From: Thalassotalea marina
Lineage (GTDB): Bacteria > Pseudomonadota > Gammaproteobacteria > Enterobacterales > Alteromonadaceae
Reading direction: 5' to 3'
NCBI RefSeq assembly: GCF_014656435.1
Contig: NZ_BNCK01000006.1
Coordinates: forward strand, 126,001-190,000
Length of the DNA: 64,000 bases
In this document: positions 39,323-41,451 of the stretch, one piece after another
How positions within the stretch are numbered: position 1 is the first letter of the stretch
Layout: each line of letters starts with the position of its first letter
Position numbers and translations under genes: made by a program
Notes under the pieces: model-generated
Databases searched by the model: none
What the model saw: only the letters and a program-made list of their open reading frames with translations
Told to the model about the DNA's origin: nothing

Positions 39323-39874
39323 ATGAAAATTGATCTGATAAATCAAAAGAGAACGATACACACAGAGCGTTTTACTATCACATCGCTTGACGCTGACGAT
39401 TGGCCATTATTTTTCGATTTGCAGAATAACAGTGAATTAATGCACTTTATTCGTCCGGTTCAGCCTGAACATGAACTTAGGGCCAAGTTTCTAGTAAATA
39501 TCGGGCCATGGACGGGAAACCCTGACCACTGGCATACACATAAAATCGTGTGTAAAGAAACCGGTAATGCATTAGGCACTATCGGATTTAAAGTGCAATG
39601 TGCAAATTCGATGCGATTTGAATTGGGCTATATTTTATATGCTGACTTTCAAGGCCAAGGTGTTATTACTGAAGCAGGCCAAGCTTTAGTTGAATTTCTT
39701 TTTAATACCTTGAATGTCCATAAAGTTGTTGCAATTTGTATGGCTGAGAACATCGGCAGTTGGAAAGTGATGGAAAAGTTGGGCATGGAACGTGAAGCTC
39801 ACCTGAAACAACATACTTTGCACAATGATAAATGGAGTGATGATTTAATTTACGGGTTAATCAATCCAGCATAA
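39323..39874 (+). CDS. GNAT N-acetyltransferase (RimJ/RimL-like)
   Basis: A 183-residue acetyl-CoA-dependent acyltransferase. The N-terminal TERFTITSLDADDW pattern, the GYILYADFQGQGVITEA acetyl-CoA loop and AICMAENIGSWKVMEKLGM are hallmarks of the RimJ/RimL branch. Targets may be ribosomal-protein N-termini or small amines. AAGGTAAAAA precedes the ATG. It ends at a bidirectional terminator. Confidence 0.9.
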   Translation: MKIDLINQKRTIHTERFTITSLDADDWPLFFDLQNNSELMHFIRPVQPEHELRAKFLVNIGPWTGNPDHWHTHKIVCKETGNALGTIGFKVQCANSMRFELGYILYADFQGQGVITEAGQALVEFLFNTLNVHKVVAICMAENIGSWKVMEKLGMEREAHLKQHTLHNDKWSDDLIYGLINPA

Positions 39875-39902
39875 AAAAACCGCCTTAATTGGCGGTTTTT
39901 TA
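39873..39902. terminator. Bidirectional terminator
   Basis: AAAAAACCGCC-TTAATT-GGCGGTTTTTT between the acetyltransferase gene and the convergent Cys-repeat gene. Confidence 0.9.
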
Positions 39903-39914
39903 TAAGCTTAGTGA

Positions 39915-40349
39915 TTACTCACCGCACTTGCCTTCACCACACTTGTCTTTTTTACCTTTTTTACCTTCGCCGCACTTACCTTTTTTGTCTTCGCCGCACT
40001 TGCCTTTTTTGCCTTCGCCGCATTTACCTTTTTTGCCTTCGCCGCATTTACCTTTTTTGTCTTCGCCGCATTTGCCTTTTTTGCCTTCGCCGCATTTACC
40101 TTTTTTACCTTCGCCGCACTTGCCTTTTTTGCCTTCGCCGCATTTGCCTTCACCACATTTGTCTTTCTTTTCTTTACCTTCACCACACGAGTGACTTGCA
40201 TCATGGTTATGGCCAGCTGAATATTGCACATCAGCAACTTCAAATGGATTTACATTACTTGAAGCACTCGCTGGCATTGAAAACGCAGCAACCAAAGCAA
40301 ACGCTGAAATTAACGCCGCAAATGTAGATTTTTTTGACATACTCATCAT
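39915..40349 (-). CDS. HvfA/bufferin-like Cys-repeat exported peptide precursor
   Basis: A 144-residue exported protein. A Sec signal peptide (MSKKSTFAALISAFAL onward, ending ASA) is followed by a short linker with HNHDASH and then a very regular Lys/Gly/Cys/Glu region with 12 Cys. Seven near-identical 8-residue units CGE(G/D)KKGK run in tandem; two EGKCG motifs flank them near both ends. EGKCG is the motif of HvfA/bufferin peptides, which DUF692-type iron enzymes (MNIO) with a DUF2063-type partner turn into copper-binding groups. Neither partner is adjacent. The interior units have Lys where EGKCG has Glu. The role in copper or metal binding is inference. AAGGAAAAC precedes the ATG pair. Confidence 0.78.
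   Translation of the reverse strand: MMSMSKKSTFAALISAFALVAAFSMPASASSNVNPFEVADVQYSAGHNHDASHSCGEGKEKKDKCGEGKCGEGKKGKCGEGKKGKCGEGKKGKCGEDKKGKCGEGKKGKCGEGKKGKCGEDKKGKCGEGKKGKKDKCGEGKCGE
39960..40150. repeat. 24-bp tandem repeats inside the Cys-repeat gene
   Basis: TTCGCCGCA recurs eight times at exact 24-base steps (from about 39967 to 40135), giving 8-codon units. The copies differ by single bases (GCC/GTC/ACC). The repeat keeps several other frames open on both strands. Confidence 0.9.
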
Positions 40350-40476
40350 GTTTTCCTTTTATTTTAAAAAATAGATACCATATCCGGTGATTGGTTCTAA
40401 ATATCTAGACCTGAAGTTTTCAGATAAATTTCACCATTCCAGAAATTTAATATAGATAAGAAGTTTACAAACGTCT

Positions 40477-41451
40477 ATGTGCTTAACAAACAACATTGAA
40501 TTTTCTAAAGTAAATCGTATCACTCTCGCTCCGATGGAGGGTGTAGCAGACGTATTGATGCGCGAATTACTCACCTCAATTAATCAATATGATTTGTGTA
40601 TAACAGAATTTGTCAGGGTAGTAAAAGGTGTTGTGCCTAAATCTATCTTCAAAAAGATCTCTCCAGAACTTAATAACCAAGGAAAAACCACAAACGGTAC
40701 GCCAGTTCGAGTTCAATTATTAGGCCAGTACCCGCAATGGATGGCAGAAAATGCCATGCGAGCTATTGAACTTGGCTCTCATGGTGTTGACCTAAATTTT
40801 GGTTGTCCCGCTAAAACGGTCAATAAAAGTAAAGGTGGTGCGGTGTTATTAAAAACACCAGAAACCATTTATCAAATTGTAAGTGCCGTGCGTCAAGCCG
40901 TACCTAGTCAACAAGTTGTATCAGCAAAGATACGGTTAGGTTTTGACGACACATCTTTGTTTGAAGAAATAGTCGATGCAATTGAACAAGCAAAAGCATC
41001 AGAACTGACCATACATGCACGTACAAAACGTGACGGTTATAACCCACCTGCTTACTGGCAACATATCGGTAATATCAAGCATAAAACCCAAATGCCTTTA
41101 TGCGCCAATGGTGAGATATGGGACTTGGCCTCAGCTCAGCAATGTATGTTAGAGGCAAAAACCAGCAACTTAATGCTAGGTCGAGGAGCCTTGGCAACAC
41201 CAAATTTAGCCAATGTACTAAAAGGCACTGAAGAAAAAATGTCTTGGCCTGCACTTTGTGAGCTATTACAACACTATGCAGAGTTAGAGTTACAAGGGGA
41301 CAAAAGCTTTTATTTTTCTAGTCGCCTAAAACAATGGCTGCGTTATTTAAAGCTACAATACCCTGAAGCCGAGCAATTATTTCAGCAGATCAAAACGTTA
41401 AAAAATAAACAAGATATCTTAGCTGTCATCTCCACTCTTAAAATCGCTTAA
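40477..41451 (+). CDS. dusC: tRNA-dihydrouridine(16) synthase DusC
   Basis: An FMN enzyme reducing uridine to dihydrouridine in the tRNA D-loop. The flavin-binding TIM-barrel motifs APMEGVADVLMR and VQLLGQ, the catalytic Cys in DLNFGCPAKTVN with KGGAVLL, and LMLGRGALATPN are all present. The length (324), the early GVAD and FVRVV segments favour the DusC branch over DusA/DusB. It is divergent from the Cys-repeat gene. Confidence 0.9.
   Translation: MCLTNNIEFSKVNRITLAPMEGVADVLMRELLTSINQYDLCITEFVRVVKGVVPKSIFKKISPELNNQGKTTNGTPVRVQLLGQYPQWMAENAMRAIELGSHGVDLNFGCPAKTVNKSKGGAVLLKTPETIYQIVSAVRQAVPSQQVVSAKIRLGFDDTSLFEEIVDAIEQAKASELTIHARTKRDGYNPPAYWQHIGNIKHKTQMPLCANGEIWDLASAQQCMLEAKTSNLMLGRGALATPNLANVLKGTEEKMSWPALCELLQHYAELELQGDKSFYFSSRLKQWLRYLKLQYPEAEQLFQQIKTLKNKQDILAVISTLKIA

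Follow-up and report, generated by a model that had tools for sequence, protein, structure and literature searches.

The closest described relatives of the peptide considered here are the HvfA/oxazolin precursors (Buf_EGKCG), among which are captophorin precursors such as FonA. In the accessible part of PMC13097082, FonBC makes 5-thiooxazoles on EGKCG repeats and most changes are tolerated; a variant with Arg at position -3 of both repeats is left unprocessed, and substrates with a single repeat are unmodified. According to the available sections of PMC13419390, HvfA carrying its signal peptide is the best substrate of HvfBC. Precursors are occasionally found with no enzyme. In Table 3 of PMC12452194, 2583 genomes carry Buf_EGKCG precursors and 67 of these lack MNIO; the accessible portion of that source offers function in the unmodified state, or loss of function, as explanations. 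The same portion describes genomes in which several precursors accompany a single MNIO pair, for which modification from another locus is proposed as possible.

The window, by which we mean the whole stretch of Thalassotalea marina DNA that was analysed (64,000 nucleotides), contains an orphan member of this group. The features of the locus, together with a candidate regulator encoded in the same genome, are as follows:

39915..40349, minus strand: orphan gene of HvfA descent for a Cys-repeat peptide (144 aa and a stop codon), matching NF050137
40263..40349, minus strand: signal peptide, probably cleaved behind ASA (residue 29), assigned by eye
40188..40250, minus strand: leader/linker NPFEVADVQYSAGHNHDASHS, with NPF kept, the Gly-Tyr motif absent and three His
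39918..40187, minus strand: repeat core with 12 Cys, including seven KKGKCGE units
40407..40433, minus strand: ECF-type promoter TGAAATTTATCTGAAAACTTCAGGTCT, the best matrix site of the 64-kb window
40477..41451, plus strand: dusC, divergent neighbour that marks where the ancestral hvf locus lies
39874..39901, no strand assigned: bidirectional intrinsic terminator, AAAAAACCGCC/GGCGGTTTTTT, with 11-nt perfect arms
962-1477 and 256-969 of locus L273 (G000:C1, the window's genome): PRK12517 ECF factor and its DUF3379 partner, candidate regulator

The original prediction described an exported 12-Cys peptide with two EGKCG motifs and seven KKGKCGE units, and this is what the open reading frame at 39915-40349 encodes. 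The codons of the seven units differ synonymously only, and the Sec-type signal peptide with its AxA site was judged by eye. The predicted likeness to HvfA was upheld by the match to NF050137, the HvfA-family KCGExKCG domain (30.9 bits, cut-off 19.5). The score against the HvfA equivalog NF050188 (11.5 bits) is below its cut-off of 95, a strict test because three of the four proteins tested from the loci called kind A below also lie under it. Profile searches with the DUF2282 and BufA2 models gave no match to the peptide, nor was a sequence match to a metallothionein or periplasmic copper-storage family found; the pattern CGEGKCGE occurs in this gene only within the genome. As the NF050137 cut-off is passed and a relative of the peptide stands beside dusC in all four congeners examined, the resemblance is beyond chance. 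The peptide derives from HvfA/oxazolin precursors.

The flanks were also correctly read. The gene forms one transcription unit between the terminator at 39874-39901, which is absent from the list of a consensus terminator scan, and dusC, whose start lies 127 bp from the peptide start codon on the opposite strand and whose product matches the DusC equivalog NF007838 (409.6 bits, cut-off 395). The absence of adjoining modification genes was likewise confirmed, tblastn with 48 HvfB and 48 HvfC queries detecting no hvfB or hvfC remnant in 20 kb around the gene at E <= 0.01. The original interpretation was borne out in part: a search of the whole genome, as it proposed, finds one MNIO (PF05114) and one DUF2063 gene, but both belong to a bufferin-1 operon (YHS protein, DUF2282 (bufferin 1), MNIO, DUF2063, thioredoxin-like protein). 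This MNIO is of bufferin type, being only 32% identical to the HvfB reference, as against 56-72% for 47 hvfA-linked HvfB proteins. No HvfB-type MNIO or HvfC was found beside the peptide or elsewhere in the genome, the single MNIO/DUF2063 pair being of the bufferin-1 type.

Relatives were counted by searches with protein P0001, because a six-frame search with NF050137 misses the window's gene and those of all four congeners; 101 of 147 genomes of the GTDB family were positive. The comparison of repeats among relatives, suggested in the original prediction, separates two kinds across these 101 genomes. We classed 51 loci as kind A, 40 as kind B (the window's own included) and 10 as other. The gene directly downstream is hvfB in 48 of the kind-A loci; a contig end truncates the remaining three (L171, L180, L192), which were assigned to this kind on their leaders. 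In kind B the locus examined contains no MNIO, and dusC is divergent, mostly about 60-200 bp away (exceptions: L181, 415 bp; L153, about 2.5 kb; L139, masked, 367 bp). The 10 others comprise eight B-like loci lacking dusC (genera g38 and g52) and two with a GY leader (G036 and G077), the latter counted as GY type in the genome table. Adding the B-like loci to kind B gives 48 kind-B genomes; L139, with a masked leader, is left out of the leader and Cys counts.

The two kinds differ in both leader and core. Every kind-A leader (51/51) carries a [Gly/Ala]-Tyr motif, and position -3 is occupied by Glu for 594 of 600 Cys; among the 48 loci with adjacent HvfB the leader reads GY in 46 and AY in two, and position -3 is Glu at 563 of 569 Cys and Lys or Arg at none. 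In kind B with the B-like loci, the [GA]Y motif occurs in none of 47 readable leaders, and position -3 of 512 Cys is Glu in 220 and Lys or Arg in 222. The loci behind all of these counts are related by descent, and kind B may represent one loss event, so the counts are not independent tests. Lys at -3, pointed out in the original prediction, is a real feature and an informative one. The window's peptide lacks the leader motif and has Glu at -3 of two of its 12 Cys. Of 17 outgroup loci, 16 have HvfB close by, and these 16 also carry the motif. This criterion, a [GA]Y leader with Glu at -3, was defined in the present analysis from HvfB-linked relatives and not from the literature. A further peptide lies outside the family: L307 (G384; family f7, genus g129) encodes, at 1342-1704 on the minus strand, an HvfA-like peptide devoid of [GA]Y, with no HvfB within the 3.2 kb examined around it, possibly an independent orphan lineage, to which G392 may also belong.

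Enzyme content follows the same division. Both MNIO and DUF2063 occur in each of the 53 genomes that encode a GY-type peptide, while an HvfB-type enzyme was found in none of the 48 kind-B genomes, and 26 of these, from 11 genera, lack both MNIO and DUF2063 at E <= 0.001. Loss of contigs during assembly was considered and rejected as the source of the orphan state, as nine of the 26 are single contigs showing the same state. Within the window's genus, five of five genomes encode the peptide and one of five an MNIO. The other 22 kind-B genomes hold 37 MNIOs, 30-41% identical to the HvfB reference as against 56-72% for those linked to hvfA. The neighbours of 35 of them include a DUF2282-like precursor in 20 cases, a BufA2-like one in 10 and neither in five; DUF2282-type genes adjoin the last two, the MNIO of G048 and that of the window's genome. 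The disappearance of HvfB-type enzymes from species that keep the peptide indicates that it probably works unmodified. Two observations stand apart. In L212 and L226 the MNIO genes are preceded by that of a 207-aa protein with 15 Cys, by pattern neither DUF2282-like nor BufA2-like, which is possibly another MNIO substrate. In L230 (G036) and L231 (G077) an HvfB-type MNIO lies about 58-59 kb from a GY-bearing hvfA, and a transposase-like open reading frame upstream of hvfB in L230 suggests that a mobile element separated the two genes.

Modification in trans has to be weighed against this reading. With two EGKCG motifs kept, the peptide could be a substrate of the bufferin MNIO and DUF2063 pair of its own genome (L001), which would yield thiooxazole Cu(I) ligands as in oxazolin; the proposal in the accessible portion of PMC12452194, of modification from another locus where precursors outnumber the MNIO pair, lends it some plausibility. 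We nevertheless regard it as unlikely. The one MNIO available is of bufferin type, 32% identical to HvfB, and the peptide is retained by the four congeners and 22 further kind-B genomes, all without MNIO. In the part of PMC13097082 available, moreover, FonBC fails when Arg occupies -3 of both repeats; that part gives no result for Lys in this place. Cross-modification would be expected to show as a higher share of Glu at -3 in genomes with a bufferin MNIO, and this signal is missing within kind B (0.39 with MNIO, 0.41 without, P 0.88). Lys at -1 is commoner in kind-B peptides from genomes with MNIO (1.00 versus 0.85), the lower value being reduced at least partly by congeners with Ser-Cys repeats. 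The 26 enzyme-free genomes and the indifference of -3 Glu to bufferin-type MNIO leave the earlier suggestion of a new substrate class unsupported; its counterpart, a peptide working unmodified as a plain metal sponge, fits better, the metal remaining putative.

The position of the gene suggests how the unmodified state arose. Kind-A loci have the order hvfA-hvfB-hvfC-apt-dnaX-ybaB, with apt, dnaX and ybaB downstream in 40, 42 and 41 of 51. The same genes are nearby in 14, 14 and 15 of 39 kind-B loci (one ybaB match lying upstream instead), and in seven or eight of the 10 others. In four kind-A loci of the family (G018, G020, G035 and G064) dusC is divergent from hvfA-hvfB. The arrangement dusC|hvfA-hvfB also occurs in five of 17 outgroup loci (families f6 and f20), which implies loss of hvfBC with retention of the peptide. 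In a tree of 44 DusC sequences, a branch with support of 86/79 splits four A-linked from 40 B-linked sequences, 39 of the latter grouping at 100/98; the tree is midpoint-rooted, and the program raised a warning about the point where two long branches meet. No hvfB or hvfC remnant was detected by tblastn (48 and 48 queries) in 49 kind-B or other loci, the search finding 48 of 51 kind-A loci as a positive control. An ancestral dusC|hvfABC locus, from which hvfBC was lost while hvfA was retained, is the simplest account, and the computation supports the window's gene as an hvfA orthologue by position, that is, at the same locus.

The two kinds also share a promoter. The two-block pattern TGAAAT-N15/17-GGTC, with a spacing of about 16-17, resembles ECF promoters and precedes the start codon by about 80-125 bp in most loci of both kinds, its strict form in 36 of 51 kind-A, 34 of 40 kind-B and seven of 10 other loci. 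Controls gave an average of 0-0.03 matches in resampled sequence (first-order Markov, not exact dinucleotide shuffles) and none on the opposite strand. In a matrix built from 83 of 96 loci, with the window's genus left out, the peptide's own site scores 23.0 and the next in the 64-kb window 11.9. Conservation of the promoter across both kinds is thus supported by computation. Genome-wide the strict pattern has one other match (C2:543408, L235), among open reading frames with no evident link, and the backward control pattern gives 3+3 matches; at that scale, therefore, specificity does not come from the pattern by itself. Among 41 MNIO loci there are eight strict matches, seven of them 63-125 bp before a gene of a bufferin operon. 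The bufferin operon of the window's genome was rejected as a further target, no match being found on its strand. In the probable 5' UTR of the peptide gene (40350-40406) and its kind-B equivalents there are further conserved blocks and short palindrome-like stretches, an example from the genus being GATATGGTATCTA.

As to the sigma factor, RpoE was rejected, since the promoter of rpoE itself reads GAACTT and not TGAAAT in the 11 rpoE loci read (of 20, the other nine lying on the opposite strand); a factor other than RpoE is therefore likely. When 52 loci with ECF, rpoE or bufferin genes are ranked by matrix score, the top three sites lie directly upstream of three PRK12517 orthologues: 25.2 in G041, 20.6 in G103 and 14.8 in the window's genome, the last barely above the next locus at 14.7. 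A fourth orthologue (G020, L286) has no such promoter. The ECF factor scores 293.9 bits against the PRK12517 model (cut-off 197) and is followed by the gene of a DUF3379 protein, likely its anti-sigma factor. We infer that this pair is the likely user of the peptide promoter. No mention of DUF3379, and no description of a PRK12517-DUF3379 stress system, was found in a literature search that covered few subscription papers.

What an unmodified peptide would do is a separate matter. It might be mainly a redox sink for oxidants or electrophiles, or a structural polycation, with metals not its physiological ligand, a view that agrees with the higher net positive charge per Cys in kind B (1.51, versus 0.73 in kind A) and with the expectation that the known Cu(I) site would disappear together with the modified ligand group. 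We judge this rather improbable, for the promoter motif is common to the bufferin operons of some kind-B genomes, which points to metal stress, and kind-B linkers have gained His, present in 30 of 47 as against six of 51 in kind A. That gain is compatible with metal binding, as far as sequence goes; 17 of the 47 kind-B linkers have no His.

Selection bears on whether the peptide does anything at all. In six comparisons among the four congeners, all without MNIO, dN/dS was 0.04-0.06 in five and 0 in the sixth, with five synonymous and no non-synonymous changes. When the gene of the window is set against the congeners, three comparisons give 0.11-0.25, and the fourth yields no value because synonymous sites are saturated. 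Purifying selection on the peptide is thus supported by computation. The orthologous repeats of these congeners (L108, L109, L111 and L114) read DKKSCGEG, with Ser-Cys, and the HvfA models gave no match to the two peptides tested (L108 and L109). That the gene is a decaying relic with no function, as the loss of its maturases might suggest and as the accessible portion of PMC12452194 offers for rare MNIO-free precursors, is very improbable given these dN/dS values (0-0.06 among congeners), reading frames intact across the 18 genera spanned by kind-B genomes, and a conserved promoter and apparent signal peptide (the Ala of the ASA site is invariant in a 23-row alignment of kind-B N-termini).

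We consider it reasonably probable that the peptide was once a RiPP precursor and now works without modification, as a putative thiol buffer that stress induces in the periplasm. On this account hvfB and hvfC would have been lost from an ancestral dusC|hvfA-hvfB-hvfC locus and hvfA kept; the features recognized by the enzymes would then have decayed, Gly-Tyr disappearing and Lys or Arg often replacing Glu at -3. Expression would continue from the ancestral ECF-type promoter, with a PRK12517-type ECF factor and its DUF3379 anti-sigma factor sensing envelope stress and directing transcription of the peptide, which Sec would export to the periplasm. There, presumably unmodified in the window's species, its thiols and linker His could buffer a metal, most likely copper, or oxidants. 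We lean slightly towards the more specific view of a RiPP-precursor lineage that has abandoned modification permanently: loss of hvfBC in place, a stand-alone thiol/His metal or redox buffer, ancestral ECF control, and drift to Ser-Cys repeats within the genus.

These results matter for annotation. Pipelines take a KCGExKCG peptide to be a modified copper RiPP, and public models still name other members of this lineage 'modified RiPP metallophore'; here is a set of species that lacks the enzymes. Since species with maturases and species lacking them share one locus and promoter, the set constitutes a natural experiment on what modification adds. The leader Gly-Tyr and the core Glu at -3 are features that track HvfB. 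A sigma/anti-sigma pair (DUF3379) is, in addition, proposed for the peptide's stress response.

Metallothioneins and periplasmic copper-storage proteins carry many thiols and need no modification. The window's peptide has many thiols in common with them but no sequence match to them, and its metal binding is putative. With bufferins 1 (DUF2282) and 2 it shares the character of an apparently exported Cys-rich peptide and, in the operons of some relatives, the promoter motif, but the Cys pattern differs. Like the HvfA/oxazolin precursors it has KCGExKCG repeats, an NPF leader and, as judged by eye, a Sec signal peptide, and it shares their genomic locus and promoter; it differs in lacking HvfB, HvfC and the [GA]Y motif, and in often having Lys or Arg at -3. 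No description of an MNIO-free hvfA lineage was found in a literature search that covered few subscription papers. The nearest precedent is the set of rare precursors in PMC12452194, likewise Buf_EGKCG-like peptides in MNIO-free genomes, which the accessible portion of that source counts with no lineage analysis. What was a 'rare precursor without MNIO' thereby becomes a delimited lineage whose predictions can be tested; its members in 26 genomes of a single family form a class by position, regulation and sequence.
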